The notes under the pieces are model-generated. The model was not told where the DNA came from. It did no database searches and saw only the letters and a list, made by a program, of their open reading frames with translations. Below, piece by piece: positions 2,418-26,951 of a DNA stretch of 35,607 nucleotides. The stretch is from Actinomycetota bacterium (lineage in GTDB: Bacteria; Actinomycetota; Acidimicrobiia; IMCC26256; PALSA-555). Where the stretch lies: positions 1 to 35,607 of the forward strand of contig VGCA01000009.1 of assembly GCA_016870245.1 (NCBI GenBank), given 5' to 3'. The translations under genes and the position numbers were made by a program. Position 1 is the stretch's first letter. Each line of letters starts with the position of its first letter.

Positions 2418-3659
2418 ATGACGACGACACTGCAGCCGAACGACCGCTATCTCGTCATCTCGAGCGACGGTCACGCCGGAGCCGACCTGCTCCAGTACCG
2501 CGAGTACCTGCCGGCGCGCTGGCACGACGAGTTCGACGCGTGGGCGGCCGCCTACAGCAACCCGTTCGCCGACCTGCTGGAGGCCACCGCCTACCGCAAC
2601 TGGGACTCGGATCGGCGCCTGGCCGAGCAGGACGCCGACGGAGTGGCGGGGGAGGTGCTGTACCCCAACACGGTGCCGCCGTTCTTCGAGCAGGGCAACC
2701 TCGTCGCGCGGCCGCCGACCGAGGCCGACTACGAGCACCGCTGGGCCGGCCTCCAGGCCCACAACCGGTGGATGGTCGACTTCTGCGCGCAGGCGCCCGA
2801 CCGGCGGGCGGGGATCATCCAGATCTTCCTGAACCGGGTCGAGGACGCGGTCGCCGAGATCCGGGAGCTCGCGCCGCTGATGAAGGTGAACGGCGGCGTC
2901 CTGCTGCCCTCGGTGTCGCCCAACTCCGGGCTGCACGAGCTGTGGGACCCCTACTACGAGCCGCTGTGGGAGGTCTGCGAGGAGCTCGACCTGCCCCTCG
3001 ACATCCACTCGGGAAGCGGCCTGCCCGACTACGGCGACCTGCCCGCGGCGCGGGCGGTGATGCTCGTGGAGATCCCGTGGTTCGCCCACCGGGCGCTGTG
3101 GCACCTCATGTTCGGCGGGGTGTTCGACGCCCATCCGGGGCTGCGGGTCGCCCAGACCGAGCAGGGGGTCGCCTGGGTGCCCCGGGGCCTCGATACCCTC
3201 GACTGGTTCTACAAGCGGATGACCACCGGAGGCGCGGCCGAGGCGGTGTTCTTCGGTGCGGTCGCCGAGAGCATGCAGATGCTGCCGAGCGAGTACTTCG
3301 CGCAGCACGTGTGGATCGGCGCCAGCTTCCTGCGGCCGAGCGAGGCCCCCCTGGTGGCCGACATCGGCGTCGACCGCATCATGTGGGGCCACGACTACCC
3401 GCACAGCGAGGGCACCTACCCGTACACCACAGAGGGCCTGCGGGTCGCGTTCGCCGGGATGCCGTCCGACGACGTCGCCCGCATGGTCGGACTCACGACT
3501 GCGGAGTTCTACGGCTTCGACGTCGACGCGCTGCGGCCGATCGCCGACCGCATCGGTCCCACCGTGGCCGACGTCGACCGTCCCCTCCCGCCGTCCGAGT
3601 ACCCGACCGACTCCACCTGCAACGCGTTCGAGCGCGAAGCCGCGATCAAGGCCTGGTGA
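2418..3659 (+). CDS. amidohydrolase_2 (ACMSD-like) metal-dependent hydrolase, paralog 1
   Basis: 'YLVISSDGHAGAD', 'LDIHSGSG', 'MWGHDYPHSEGTYPY'; SD AAGGGGG upstream of ATG 2418. Confidence 0.85.
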   Translation: MTTTLQPNDRYLVISSDGHAGADLLQYREYLPARWHDEFDAWAAAYSNPFADLLEATAYRNWDSDRRLAEQDADGVAGEVLYPNTVPPFFEQGNLVARPPTEADYEHRWAGLQAHNRWMVDFCAQAPDRRAGIIQIFLNRVEDAVAEIRELAPLMKVNGGVLLPSVSPNSGLHELWDPYYEPLWEVCEELDLPLDIHSGSGLPDYGDLPAARAVMLVEIPWFAHRALWHLMFGGVFDAHPGLRVAQTEQGVAWVPRGLDTLDWFYKRMTTGGAAEAVFFGAVAESMQMLPSEYFAQHVWIGASFLRPSEAPLVADIGVDRIMWGHDYPHSEGTYPYTTEGLRVAFAGMPSDDVARMVGLTTAEFYGFDVDALRPIADRIGPTVADVDRPLPPSEYPTDSTCNAFEREAAIKAW

Positions 3660-3661
3660 GC

Positions 3662-4636
3662 ATGTTCACGATGCGATTCGACCTCCGGGTGCCCGGGATG
3701 ACCCCGGCCCAGGTCGCCGACGAGTACGCCACCGCGATCGAGATGGCCGAGTGGGCCGAGGACAAGGGGTGCGTCGCCGCGGTGATCTCCGAGCACCACG
3801 CCTCGCCCGACGGCTACCTCCCTGCGCCGTTGATCCTCGCGACGGCGATGGCCGCCCGCACGAAGACGCTGGCGATCGCGGTCGGCGCGGCGTTGCTGCC
3901 GCTGTACGACCCGGTGAAGCTGGCCGAGGAGATGATCGTCCTCGACCACATCAGCCGGGGCCGGGTCTCCTACGTGTTCGGGATCGGGTACCGCGAGGAC
4001 GAGTACGACCTGTTCGGGGTCGACTACGCCGCCCGTGGCCGCGTCGCCGACGAGAAGCTCGACAAGATCCTCGCGGTGCTCGACGCCGCGTCGGTGGCCA
4101 CCGACCGGGTGCGCATCACGCCGGCGCCCTACACGTCGCCTCGCCCCGCGATCGCGTGGGGTGGCGCGTCGAAGGCCGCGGCCCGGCGGGCGGGCAGCCG
4201 GGGCCTCGACCTGTTCGGGTCGGGCACCTGCGACGGCATCGAGGAGGCCTACGCCGAAGCGGCGCGGGCCGCGGGGCACGAGCCCGGCCAGTGCACGGTC
4301 CCGCAGCCGGGCGTGCCGATGACGGTGTTCGTCAACGACGACCAGGACGCCGGCTGGGCCGACGTCGGGCCGTACCTGATGAACGACGTGCTCTCCTACG
4401 CCGAGTGGAACGAGGACTCGAGGAACGTCGCGAGCCTGTCGTACTCCAAGACCGTCGACGATCTGCGGGCCGAGCGCGGCGCGCACCGGGTGATGACCGT
4501 CGACGAGGCCGTCGAGTTCGTGGGCACCCACTTCGTGCTGCCGCTGCACCCCCTGTGCGGCGGTACCCCGCCCGACATCGCCTGGCCCTACCTCCGCCGC
4601 GTCGTCGACGAGGTCATGCCCCGCACCCACCCATAG
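3662..4636 (+). CDS. LLM-class flavin-dependent oxidoreductase
   Basis: 'AEWAEDKGCVAAVISEHHASPDGYLPAPLILATAMAARTKTLAIAVGAALLPLYDPVKLAEEMIVLDHISRGRVSYVFGIGYREDEYDLFG' luciferase-like monooxygenase signature. Confidence 0.88.
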   Translation: MFTMRFDLRVPGMTPAQVADEYATAIEMAEWAEDKGCVAAVISEHHASPDGYLPAPLILATAMAARTKTLAIAVGAALLPLYDPVKLAEEMIVLDHISRGRVSYVFGIGYREDEYDLFGVDYAARGRVADEKLDKILAVLDAASVATDRVRITPAPYTSPRPAIAWGGASKAAARRAGSRGLDLFGSGTCDGIEEAYAEAARAAGHEPGQCTVPQPGVPMTVFVNDDQDAGWADVGPYLMNDVLSYAEWNEDSRNVASLSYSKTVDDLRAERGAHRVMTVDEAVEFVGTHFVLPLHPLCGGTPPDIAWPYLRRVVDEVMPRTHP

Positions 4637-4722
4637 ATGCGCTTCTCACCGTCGATACCCAGTGCGACGATGCGCTTCTCACCGTCGATACGAGTCGGTC
4701 GATCGACGGTGAGAAACGCATC
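4636..4722. repeat. Dispersed 21-bp repeat locus A: direct copies 4636-4656 and 4669-4689 plus inverted copy 4702-4722
   Basis: GATGCGCTTCTCACCGTCGAT twice, then ATCGACGGTGAGAAACGCATC; same unit as 25831-26063. Confidence 0.95.
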
Positions 4723-4731
4723 GGGGGTGGG

Positions 4732-6192
4732 TCAGGCGGGGGCGGAGGCGAGGCGGCCGTCGGCGATCGCCTGCACGAACGCGGCGTGGTCGGCCTCGTT
4801 GCGGTCGGCGTAGTCCTGGGCGAACGCGGTGAGCGAGCGGTCGAGCCGGTCGCTGGTGCCGACGTACGCGTCGATCGCGACCGCGTCGCCCGAGCGCGCA
4901 TGGCCGCGCGCCAGGGTCCACGCGCACGTGGCCGCGTGGTTGCGCAGCTGGCTGGGCGTGACGGTGCCGAGGTCGACGCTGAACTTCCAGTCGCGCAGCT
5001 GGCGCACGTAGAAGTGGGTGCCCGCGGGGCCGACGGTCCACCCGAGGAAGATGTCGCTGACCGCCTGCGCGAGCCGCTGCCCCTCCACGACCCGTCGTCC
5101 GTGGTGGTCGTAGTGGCTGGGGGCGAGGACGTCCTCGTAGACCGACCGCGTCGCCTCCTTCACCTGGAGGAAGAGCGGGTCGTCGCGGTCGTGTCCCTCG
5201 AGGAGCACGACGAGGCAGCGGGTGCCGACGCTGCCGACGCCGACCACCTTCAGGCCGACGTCGAGTGGGCGGTAGCGCTCGAGCACCGAGCGCCGGTCGT
5301 CGTAGAGCGTGTCCTTGTAGGCGTCGAACGTGGCCCACGCGGCCTCGATCAGCTCGTTGCCGTCGACGTCGCCGTAGCCGTGGTCGCCCAGATCGTGGAG
5401 CGAGTGCAGCAGTGGCGGCGAGTTCCGGAAGCGGAGCGTGCCGTCGACCTCCTCCGTCAGCTTCCGCACCGCATGCAGGTGGTCGTGCGTGTAGGCCGTG
5501 TGGGCGACGCGATCGAGCTCGCGACGCGTTCGCTTGACGACGGGCACGTAGTCGCCCCGGCCGAGCGCGTCGATCGACAGGTAGCGGTACCAGAGCTCGA
5601 GCACGGGCATCGTGGCGAAGCGGGCCATGCCCGCCCGGTACGTGGCCACCGCGAACGTGGTCATCTCCATGACGTCGCGCCGGGGCATGCCGCGGTCACG
5701 TCCGCAGATCGCGATGCTCGCCGTCAGCCGCTTCAGGTCCCACTCGAACGGTCCGGGCAGGGTCTCGTCGAAGTCGTTGGCGTCGAACACCAGCTGGCGC
5801 TCCGGCGACGCGTAGATGCCGAAGTTGGCGAGGTGCGCGTCGCCGTCCATCTGCACCGTGAGGTCGGTACGGGGCGCGTCAGCAAGGTCGACCGCCATCA
5901 CCCGCGCCGCTCCCCGGAAGAAGGCGAACGGGGAGGCCTCCATGCGGGCGTGGCGGATGGGGACCAGCCAGGGGATCCGGGCGGCGTTCTGCTGCTCGAT
6001 CAGGGCCACCGGGTCCGGACGGTCGGCCGCCGGGCTCCAGTCGCCGTGGGCCGACCGCGGCACCGCGGCCCGGGAGGCGCGGCCGCGCTCCGACCGTTCG
6101 GCGATGCTGCGCCGGGGACCGCCGTGGGGAGCGGTGGGGAACGTGGGCTCGGCGATCGGATCCTCCTCCGCTCGGACGGGCCAGGATGCCAC
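4732..6192 (-). CDS. DUF2252 family protein (start uncertain: GTG 6192, or an SD-associated ATC at 6156)
   Basis: 'RMEASPFAFFRGAARVMAVDLA', 'VQMDGDAHLANFGIYASPERQLVFDANDFDETLPGPFEWDLKRLTASI' typical of DUF2252. Confidence 0.85.
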   Translation of the reverse strand: MASWPVRAEEDPIAEPTFPTAPHGGPRRSIAERSERGRASRAAVPRSAHGDWSPAADRPDPVALIEQQNAARIPWLVPIRHARMEASPFAFFRGAARVMAVDLADAPRTDLTVQMDGDAHLANFGIYASPERQLVFDANDFDETLPGPFEWDLKRLTASIAICGRDRGMPRRDVMEMTTFAVATYRAGMARFATMPVLELWYRYLSIDALGRGDYVPVVKRTRRELDRVAHTAYTHDHLHAVRKLTEEVDGTLRFRNSPPLLHSLHDLGDHGYGDVDGNELIEAAWATFDAYKDTLYDDRRSVLERYRPLDVGLKVVGVGSVGTRCLVVLLEGHDRDDPLFLQVKEATRSVYEDVLAPSHYDHHGRRVVEGQRLAQAVSDIFLGWTVGPAGTHFYVRQLRDWKFSVDLGTVTPSQLRNHAATCAWTLARGHARSGDAVAIDAYVGTSDRLDRSLTAFAQDYADRNEADHAAFVQAIADGRLASAPA

Positions 6193-15831: not shown

Positions 15832-15928
15832 GGTTCGCCGGACCGCGCGCGACGCTCCATGCCGTGGATATCCGGCGGGTCGCCGACGCGTGCAACACTC
15901 TCACTTCGGCCCGACGTTGGAGGTGGCC

Positions 15929-16351
15929 ATGGCCCAGCGCAGCTCGAACAGCGGCAGCGAGCGCGGTCTCGACCGGCTCTCGGCGAAATCCGAGCGAGTC
16001 ATGAACGACATCGGCGAACAGCTCCGCCGCCTCGAGGAGCAGGTGCGGGATTCGGTCTCGCGTGGCCAAGAGGCGACGGAGCGGCTCCTCGAGAACGCCC
16101 AGCGGGAGATCCGGAGCCAGCTCGACGGGCTGCGCCGGGAGATCGACGGGTTGACCCGCCGGGTCCGTGCCACGGCCGCGAAGAAGGCCCCGGCCAAGAA
16201 GCCCGCTGGCAAGAAGGCCCCGGCCAAGAAGCCCGCGGCCAAGAAGGCCCCGGCCAAGAAGCCCGCGGCCAAGAAGGCCCCGGCCAAGAAGCCCGCGGCC
16301 AAGAAGGCCCCGGCCAAGAAGCCCGCAGGCAAGAAGGCCCCCACCAAGTAG
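15929..16351 (+). CDS. coiled-coil (phasin-like?) protein with KAPAKKPA-repeat basic C-terminal tail
   Basis: SD TTGGAGG, ATG 15929; 'RVMNDIGEQLRRLEEQVRDSVSRGQEATERLLENAQREIRSQLDGLRREIDGLTRRV' then (KKAPAKKPAA)n; 30-bp DNA period. Confidence 0.82.
   Translation: MAQRSSNSGSERGLDRLSAKSERVMNDIGEQLRRLEEQVRDSVSRGQEATERLLENAQREIRSQLDGLRREIDGLTRRVRATAAKKAPAKKPAGKKAPAKKPAAKKAPAKKPAAKKAPAKKPAAKKAPAKKPAGKKAPTK
16181..16350 (+). repeat. 30-bp in-frame coding tandem repeat, about 5.7 copies (aagaaggccccggccaagaagcccgcggcc)
   Basis: Unit starts at 16181, 16211, 16241, 16271, 16301, 16331. Confidence 0.95.
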
Positions 16352-16371
16352 GTCCGGCTGGAAGCCGGGCC
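16351..16371. terminator. Hairpin between convergent genes
   Basis: GGTCCGGCT-gga-AGCCGGGCC between genes ending 16351(+) and 16380(-). Confidence 0.6.
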
Positions 16372-19036: not shown

Positions 19037-19182
19037 GGGTCGCTGCGCTCCCTACTCCGGGGTCGCTCCGCTCGCTGCGCTCCCTACTCCGGGGTCGCTC
19101 CGCTCGCTGCGCTCCCTACTCCGGGGTCGCTCCGCTCGCTGCGCTCCCTACTCCGGGGTCGCTCCGCTCGCTGCGCTCCCTA
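19037..19182. repeat. 32-bp tandem array, about 4.6 copies, between convergent genes and containing the minus-strand stop codon
   Basis: CCTACTCC at 19051, 19083, 19115, 19147 and degenerate CCTAG at 19179; exact 32-bp period. Confidence 0.95.
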
Positions 19183-24665: not shown

Positions 24666-25826
24666 ATGAAGTCGCTGGGGCCGCTCACCGCGGCCGACGA
24701 GATGATGACCCACCAGATCGTCGACACCTTCGCGTCGGTCGGGCAGACCGACCGTTCGTGGACCGAGAAGGTCTGCGCCATGGCCTGCGCCAAGGACGGC
24801 TCCCTGTACCTCGGCTTCGGCCTCGGCAAGTACACCAACCGGGGCGTGATGGACGGGTACGCGGCGATCTCCAGAGGCAAGGAGATCCGCGTGGTGCGCG
24901 CGAGCCGCGAGCTCGGTGCTGACCCGGTGACCACGTCGATCGGGCCGATCCACTACGAGGTGCTCGAGCCCCTGCAGCGCGTGCGGTTCGCGCTCGACGC
25001 CAACGACGCGCAGCCGATCGCGTTCGAGTGGATCTTCGAGTCGGTGGTCCCGCCGTTCGTCGAGCACCCGGAGCAGGCCCGCAGCCGCGACGGCCTGCGT
25101 CTCGACCAGGACCTCATCCGCTACCACCAGTCCGGCGTCGCGCACGGCTGGGTCGAGATCGAGGGCGTGCGCACGGAGTTCGACACCGACTCGTGGGTCA
25201 GCACGCGCGACCACTCGTGGGGCGTCCGCCACGGCGTGGGCGCGCCCGACCCCGACGTGAAGGAGGCCGACCGCCCGGCCGAGCTCGCGATCCTCGTCAA
25301 CTGGAGCCCCATCGTCTGCGAGCGGCCCGACGGATCGCGCTACGCGCTCCACTGGTTCTGGCAGCGCCAGCAGGTGCCGGGCTGGCAGAACGAGCACTTC
25401 CAGGGCGGGGTGGAGCACCCCGACGGCACCAAGGAGCCCTTCACCGCGATCGAGCCGGAGTTCGAGGTCGACCCGGTGACCCGCCGGGTGCGGCGAGGCC
25501 GGGTGACGTTCCGCCTGGCCGACGGGTCCACCCGACCGATCACCATCGAGAAGCTCGACGACACCGGCCTGCCCCTCGGCGCCGGTCTCTACTTCGGGCT
25601 CGACGGCAAGTTCCACGGCTCGTACCGCGGTGTGCTCGAAGTCGAGGGCGAGCACGTCCCCGACGTGACCGAGGCCGCCGCGGCCCGGCGGCTGCACCAG
25701 CTCGTCGACCACGTCGTCCGCGTGGAGGACCCGGTCGGCGGCGGGATCGGCGTCGGCAACCTCCAGACCCTGTTCGTCGGCCCCATCCCCGACATGGGCC
25801 TCGACCAGGAGTCGTCCTTCCTCTGA
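24666..25826 (+). CDS. conserved hypothetical protein (lipocalin-like, unassigned)
   Basis: SD GGGAGGAG, ATG 24666; 386 aa 'MKSLGPLTAADEMMTHQIVDTFASVGQTDRSWTEKVCAMACAKDGSLYLGFGLGKYTNRGVMDGYAAI...'. Confidence 0.8.
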   Translation: MKSLGPLTAADEMMTHQIVDTFASVGQTDRSWTEKVCAMACAKDGSLYLGFGLGKYTNRGVMDGYAAISRGKEIRVVRASRELGADPVTTSIGPIHYEVLEPLQRVRFALDANDAQPIAFEWIFESVVPPFVEHPEQARSRDGLRLDQDLIRYHQSGVAHGWVEIEGVRTEFDTDSWVSTRDHSWGVRHGVGAPDPDVKEADRPAELAILVNWSPIVCERPDGSRYALHWFWQRQQVPGWQNEHFQGGVEHPDGTKEPFTAIEPEFEVDPVTRRVRRGRVTFRLADGSTRPITIEKLDDTGLPLGAGLYFGLDGKFHGSYRGVLEVEGEHVPDVTEAAAARRLHQLVDHVVRVEDPVGGGIGVGNLQTLFVGPIPDMGLDQESSFL

Positions 25827-25830
25827 CCCC

Positions 25831-26063
25831 GATGCGCTTCTCACCGTCGATCCGGCCGATGCGCTTCTCACCGTCGATGCGGCCGATGCGTTTCTCACCG
25901 TCGATGCGGCCGATGCGCTTCTCACCGTCGATGCGGCCGATGCGCTTCTCACCGTCGATGCGGCCGATGCGCTTCTCACCGTCGATCGACTCCCGGCACC
26001 CGTACCGGGGCCGAAGCCCGTGGGGCCCGTGATCGGCCCTCGATCGACGGTGAGAAACGCATC
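25831..26063. repeat. Dispersed 21-bp repeat locus B: six direct copies (27-bp period) plus one inverted copy
   Basis: Direct copies start at 25831, 25858, 25885, 25912, 25939, 25966; inverted ATCGACGGTGAGAAACGCATC 26043-26063. Confidence 0.97.
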
Positions 26064-26138
26064 AGCGGGCTCGGTCGGTCATGGTGGTCGTGGCGCGACC
26101 CTGAGCCACCCCGGCCGGGCGCGTGAGAGGATGCGCGG

Positions 26139-26951
26139 GTGACGCTCGAGACGGTCCCGCTGTCAGCGGCCCTGGGGGTGGAGGTGCGCGGCGTCGACCT
26201 GCACGCGGACCCCGAGCCCTGGAGCGAGACGCTGCGCGACCTGCTCACCCGTCACCACCTGCTCTGCTTCCGCGTGACGGACCTGGCCCCCGCCGAGCAG
26301 CAGCGGCTCCTCGCCGGCTTCGGCCCACTGCTCGACGAGAGCTTCGACGGGTCGGGCTACAGCCTCGTGTCGAACGTCGAGGCCGGCGGGGTGCTGGGGG
26401 AGTGGGAGTACCTGTTCCACTCCGACCTCGAGTTCACCGACGACCCGATTCGGGTCATCAGCCTCTACGCACTCGAGCTCCCGGACGCTCCGACGTCGAC
26501 GCGCTTCGCCAACACCGCACGGGCCGCCCGGCGGCTCGACGCGGCGACCCGCGACCGCGTGGAGGGCCGCACCGCCGTCCACGTGTACCCGCTCACGAGC
26601 GCCCGGGGCGACGTGCGCTTCCGCCTCGCCGACGTCGACGCCGGCGCCGCCACCGCCGAGCACCCCGTCCTCATGGCCCACCCGGTGACCGGCGAGGACC
26701 TGCTGTACGTGGGTGCGATGCAGACCGACTCGATCGTGGGCCTCCCCGACGACGAGAGCGAGGAGCTCCTGGCCCGGTGCTGGGACGTCCTCTACGCCCC
26801 CGACAACGTCTACGAGCACGTGTGGTCCGCGGGGGACCTCCTCGTCTGGGACAATCTCGCCCTGCACCATGCCCGCAGCGCCGTCTCGGGCCGCCGCACC
26901 CTCCGGCGCGTCCCCGTTGGCTCCACCGTCGCCCGCCTGCGCACCACCTGA
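26139..26951 (+). CDS. TauD/TfdA-family Fe(II)/2-oxoglutarate-type dioxygenase
   Basis: 'LGVEVRGVDLHADPEP', 'YLFHSDLEFTDDP' (HxD), 'LLVWDNLALHHARSAVSGRRTLRRVPV' (distal H and R). Confidence 0.88.
   Translation: MTLETVPLSAALGVEVRGVDLHADPEPWSETLRDLLTRHHLLCFRVTDLAPAEQQRLLAGFGPLLDESFDGSGYSLVSNVEAGGVLGEWEYLFHSDLEFTDDPIRVISLYALELPDAPTSTRFANTARAARRLDAATRDRVEGRTAVHVYPLTSARGDVRFRLADVDAGAATAEHPVLMAHPVTGEDLLYVGAMQTDSIVGLPDDESEELLARCWDVLYAPDNVYEHVWSAGDLLVWDNLALHHARSAVSGRRTLRRVPVGSTVARLRTT

Follow-up and report, generated by a model that had tools for sequence, protein, structure and literature searches.

The window analysed here, 35,607 nucleotides long, is the whole of contig C9 in a 3.36-Mb draft genome (G000; 385 contigs, 95% complete, 72% GC). 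Between a gene without a Pfam match and a dioxygenase-like gene read in the same direction, it carries an array of six direct copies and one inverted copy of a 21-bp unit; a smaller locus of the same unit lies between two convergent genes. Genes were called with our own codon-usage caller and their individual boundaries are approximate.

3656-4636, forward strand: luciferase-like gene, convergent neighbour on the left of the smaller locus
4636-4722, no strand assigned: second locus of the family (++-), with a pair of direct units at a 33-bp period and a single inverted unit
4732-6192, reverse strand: DUF2252 gene, convergent neighbour on the right of the smaller locus
24666-25826, forward strand: gene upstream of the array, 386 aa, without a Pfam match (open reading frame and codon-usage call, Pfam)
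25831-25986, forward strand: six direct 21-bp units with a 27-bp period, GATGCGYTTCTCACCGTCGAT (sequence match)
25987-26042, no strand assigned: 56-bp loop from the last direct unit to the inverted unit
26043-26063, reverse strand: one inverted 21-bp unit (sequence match)
25966-26063, no strand assigned: predicted hairpin, 24-bp stem with one C/A mismatch and no U-tract behind it (fold)
26139-26951, forward strand: next gene, same direction, TauD/TfdA dioxygenase-like, starting 75 nt past the array

The geometry described in the sequence-only reading was reproduced in every detail. All seven copies are exact (direct starts at 25831, 25858, 25885, 25912, 25939 and 25966; inverted copy at 26043-26063), the array begins 4 nt past the stop at 25826, and the spacers between direct units are GCGGCC in four cases and CCGGCC in one. 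The 56-bp gap is exact, the stem formed by 25966-25989 and 26040-26063 with its single C/A mismatch is real, the third unit (25885) is the T variant that pairs perfectly with the inverted unit, and no U-tract lies behind the array on either strand. The stretch 25955-26075 folds at -72.8 kcal/mol (z -5.0); the loop itself is neither conserved among loci nor more structured than shuffled sequence. The proposed competition of six 5′ arms for one 3′ arm does apply to this array, yet it does not extend to the family, because other loci show the reverse imbalance (one plus arm against two to five minus arms) or a plain plus-minus pair. At the second locus, the last base of the TAG stop of the gene at 3656-4636 is the first base of the first unit. 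Across the window there are 10 matches with at most three mismatches, where shuffles predict 0.01, and three of them make up this second locus.

Two other tandem repeats were also observed in the window. A convergent gap at 19040-19182 is filled by 4.5 perfect copies of a 32-bp repeat, TCGCTGCGCTCCCTACTCCGGGGTCGCTCCGC, whose sub-word GGTCGCTCCGCTC is also found between genes on contigs C5, C8, C21 and C54, as 74-87 bp tandem arrays. At 16181-16352, 5.6 copies of an in-frame 30-bp repeat of the AAGAAGGCCCCGGCC type, rich in Lys, Ala and Pro, lie at the 3′ end of a small open reading frame (15890-16351).

Genome-wide, 126 matches to the 21-mer were obtained at up to two mismatches and none with the reversed pattern as a control, while about 1e-6 exact matches per genome would be expected from composition alone. 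In 1.65 Mb of genome stretches, comprising every listed place with an exact copy and many of the largest other contigs, 124 copies with at most three mismatches fall into about 43 clusters, and 102 of the 124 have no mismatch to GATGCGYTTCTSACCGTCGAT. The mismatch distribution is sharply bimodal, with copies at 0-1 and background at 5-6. The 21-mer was absent from three congeners and from the remainder of 40 relatives, and a search of 58 genomes of the order returned a single other copy, with one mismatch. A further search of 257 Gb of species genomes, which may omit records very close to the window's own genome, gave seven isolated single matches, and viral contigs gave two; these were treated as chance without individual inspection. 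The sequence-only reading had staked itself on the unit not being confined to two loci without a bias to stop codons, and the unit occurs at far more than two, with such a bias. The array is thus one locus of a dispersed family that, among the genomes sampled, is restricted to this one.

The clusters take the form (+)n(-)m, with n and m ranging from 0 to 6, and plus units precede minus units in all 30 clusters that hold both orientations; about 10 clusters are single-orientation, several of them at contig ends. Of 51 intervals between direct units, 30 measure 33 bp, with 18, 27, 32, 34 and 41 bp seen as well; facing units stand 26-33 bp apart at 17 loci (32-33 bp in 11 cases) and 42-77 bp apart at 12, and one exceptional pair overlaps, at 15 bp. 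The spacers vary in sequence from locus to locus and are C-rich: 61% of their bases are C and 21% are G, while the DNA behind other stops has 44% C and 34% G. A C stands before 64 of 72 outer units. What is kept is therefore the unit and its spacing, while the spacers drift in sequence. Several contigs (C53, C118, C183, C256 and C286) end in or near units, so the copy numbers of the longest arrays are unreliable. Arrays with an 18-bp period, in which units share GAT ends, occur at C118:9252-9344 and C256:3828-3920; the former contig breaks inside its array and the latter a few bases after it, and their true lengths may exceed those seen. In the otherwise near-invariant unit, position 7 is polymorphic across all loci (76 C, 48 T), the base being common to tandem neighbours in 30 of 41 comparisons and different between facing arms in 16 of 30. 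Copies inside genes were found at C213, C15 and C30, those at C15 and C30 carrying one or two mismatches. The intragenic copies were considered as the family's origin and set aside: the one at C213, inside an acyl-CoA dehydrogenase-like gene, offers no hint of a source.

The family is strongly tied to gene 3′ ends. Of the 35 clusters away from contig edges, 20 are flanked by convergent genes, compared with 243 of 1507 adjacent gene pairs overall (16%; P=4e-8), and 48 of the 52 units within 60 bp of a gene 3′ end read in the sense of that gene. Relative to the stop codon, most outer units begin at -2 to +17 nt, and five loci have a stop codon to which the unit itself contributes. The convergent gap left outside the element has a median of 12 nt, against 39 nt in other non-overlapping convergent pairs. 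Minus units are also present without a convergent next gene, namely at C8, at C80 and in the window array. In the congener G001, the syntenic counterparts of two element-bearing convergent pairs overlap tail to tail with no repeat at either, so that the element coincides with newly gained space between the stops; this is consistent with insertion, although the gene ends may instead have been remodelled. No equivalent repeat family was found in 203 kb of G001, a sample expected to hold just a few loci.

The clusters fold strongly, with a median z of -7.6; the value is close to 0 in coding sequence and -0.85 in native convergent gaps. Single units, which are not palindromic, fold at merely -1.5 to -3.0 kcal/mol. 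Conserved structure was sought in the long loops and not found (z near 0), and Rfam gave no match. Despite the strong stem, TTTT is absent from all of 25 elements, which accordingly lack the U-tract of an intrinsic terminator. Facing innermost arms covary at position 12 (C/G; 3 mismatches against 7.7 expected, P=0.0095), at positions 19-21 (P=0.001) and over all positions except 7 (P=5e-5). However, the loci at C6, C8 and C165 have related loop sequences and, judging by these loops, probably descend from one another, which weakens the covariation test; inverted duplication or common descent may account for part of the covariation. The related loop is at the same time the best sign that whole doublets are copied.

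Native convergent gaps in this genome tend to fold more strongly than its other gaps, with 29% of them at z below -2 against 4-9%, and T-tracts are rare in them (3%). In convergent gaps free of the 21-bp element, a second family was observed, a fixed stem-loop of the form CGTTYTGGCGTCCCC...GGGGACGCCARAACG whose arms begin at an interval of 36-37 bp and whose total length is 51-52 bp. It has 37 arm matches in this genome versus 0-2 in each relative, and 8 of 11 placeable elements sit in convergent gaps, at 0-14 nt from each of the two stops. Sites include C1:24404, C6:36012, C10:14506, C30:5003, C33:1983, C33:7529, C36:14374 and C80:7016. Together with the strong folds and rare T-tracts of the native gaps, this second family indicates that the genome uses, or tolerates, strong hairpins without U-tracts at convergent ends, where two word families have multiplied.

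The usual account of REP-like elements invokes RAYT transposases and units that are themselves palindromes. The REP/BIME resemblance suggested in the sequence-only reading stands as regards extragenic position, 3′-end bias, converging units and hairpin formation, and falls with the non-palindromic unit and the transposase: a Y1/RAYT search of the genome and 40 relatives found none in the genome, genus or family, although a copy may lie in the 5% missing from this 95% complete genome. Adjacent target-site duplications were seen at 0 of 29 loci, with no excess over shuffles when offsets were allowed, and complementary outer flanks did not occur beyond shuffles. The 21-mer has no multi-copy occurrence in the species genomes and viral contigs searched, although a parent insertion sequence could have been lost. 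A unit pair around a gene was seen solely at C128; the gene between the two close clusters there was considered as a mobiliser and rejected, its product being RraA-like. We regard the family as REPIN-like rather than as a REPIN, and as RAYT-less, because the single unit is no palindrome and the searches of genome, genus and family yielded no Y1 transposase; the family appears to have multiplied recently in this lineage.

The reading to which we give a roughly even chance is that this dispersed REPIN-like family provides transcripts with a bidirectional 3′-end hairpin lacking a U-tract. The core element would be two 21-bp units facing across a loop, settling directly behind stop codons and mostly between convergent genes, with extra direct copies arising by local tandem duplication. 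Once transcribed, the facing arms are predicted to pair into a hairpin of 21-28 bp that lacks a U-tract and might either pause RNA polymerase or, after Rho has released the transcript, block 3′-to-5′ exonucleases; both of two facing messages would then end at the hairpin. In a genome that encodes Rho and has 72% GC, the exonuclease block would be the favoured variant. Mycobacterial RNA polymerase reportedly needs a U-tract, which makes direct termination doubtful. An RNA-level function of the hairpins is suggested by stem strength, placement in sense at both stops, covarying arms, the presence of Rho and the precedent of Streptomyces, where stem-loop 3′ ends without U-tracts are an established class (PMC8269248). 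Against the hairpin stand the single-orientation clusters and the position-7 base that differs between so many facing arms. Moreover, the hairpin alone does not explain the strict conservation of the word and its 33-bp spacing, and a protein-recognition model stays alive.

In such a model, a polar DNA-binding protein on the non-palindromic unit would form a transcription roadblock behind genes, the hairpins being incidental; conservation at near-every unit position, spacers that vary in sequence and not in length (33 bp, about three helical turns) and tandem copies in gene sense would suit it. It is nevertheless rather improbable, since minus units occur without a convergent next gene, facing arms covary, periods of 18 and 27 bp occur too, and there is no candidate protein. 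We put in the same improbable range the idea of a lineage-specific gene-end system, whose factor (a polar roadblock protein, or a non-Y1 mobiliser aimed at the stops of convergent genes) would recognise the unit at about three-turn spacing, tandem sites ending the transcription of two facing genes; the two unrelated word families in the same habitat would then be its successive generations. A selfish repeat without host function, its doublet mobilised in trans by some enzyme and its 3′-end habitat reflecting low-harm insertion sites, is unlikely but carries real weight: it would accommodate the restriction to one genome, the near-identical copies, the related loop at three loci and the existence of a second family. 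It sits badly with the strict sense orientation and closeness to stops, with drifted spacers and loops against unchanged units, which argue for selection on the units, and with the lack of target duplications and of a Y1 transposase.

The sense orientation, the Rho gene and the C-rich composition of the spacers could also speak for repeats of a C-rich, pyrimidine-rich unit plus spacer on which Rho loads, tandems adding loading sites. This is quite improbable, as a rut site needs no invariant word, strong structure such as that of the units hinders loading, and minus units occur without a convergent gene. In terminators, uptake words are often arranged as inverted pairs, and a competence word kept as inverted pairs at gene ends would likewise be a species-specific repeat in this habitat, yet with just about 126 copies in some 43 clusters, and a length of 21 bp that is long for such a word, DNA uptake is very hard to credit. 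As for an assembly artefact or misassembled tandem array, to which the contigs ending in or near units might point, about 30 clusters, both window loci included, have unique sequence flanking them on either side, and periods, spacers and variants differ among loci; this contradicts an artefact for the family, leaves the six-copy count correctable, and makes the explanation barely conceivable.

Set beside known systems, the family shares with the uptake sequences of Neisseria and Pasteurellaceae a species-specific repeated word, but theirs are shorter and far more numerous, uptake motifs numbering hundreds to thousands (PMC2346458). Like MITEs, the elements are short, non-coding, bounded by 21-bp inverted repeats and probably transcribed with their neighbours, and unlike them they have no target-site duplication or common internal sequence, yielded no parent element in the searches, and carry several direct copies of the terminal word. 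With the U-tract-less terminators of the I-shaped type they have in common a strong GC-rich stem-loop at 3′ ends that would be bidirectional at convergent genes (PMC8269248); those terminators are not one repeated word, whereas some 43 loci here have the same 21-mer. Mycobacterium tuberculosis has few canonical terminators (PMC10937400).

The closest likenesses are to REP-type elements, above all to REPINs. A literature search for REP-type repeats in Acidimicrobiia returned no papers. Tagged REP units are stem-loops of 20-40 bp that carry an unpaired tag, GTAG or CGTC, and they seldom form head-tail dimers (PMC3733652). GTAG/CGTC REPs and BIMEs resemble the present family in their preference for 3′ ends and convergent gaps, in termini that supply stops and in being species-specific, and CGTC-type REPs likewise lack a dedicated transposase (PMC3733652). 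The family shares their extragenic, high-copy, 3′-end and convergent location; it differs in that the lone unit hardly folds and has no terminal GTAG, CGTC lies inside the word, and direct arrays are common. REPINs are REP doublets that form hairpins (PMC3116915), and the family, with facing units in 30 clusters, matches them in a short invariant word that is paired in inverted orientation across a spacer under weaker conservation, in extragenic position, many copies, some tandem clusters and a predicted hairpin (PMC3116915). It departs from REPINs in a 21-bp unit that is no REP palindrome, in the absence of a RAYT from the genome, genus and family searched, in common direct tandems of single units and in a very strong stop-codon bias. 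REPIN-type spread, habitat and hairpin are thus combined with neither a RAYT nor a self-palindromic unit, and a second, independent family occupies the same genome, which makes the family a clean test case for REP-like spread without RAYTs and a test case for how transcripts end without U-tracts in very GC-rich bacteria.
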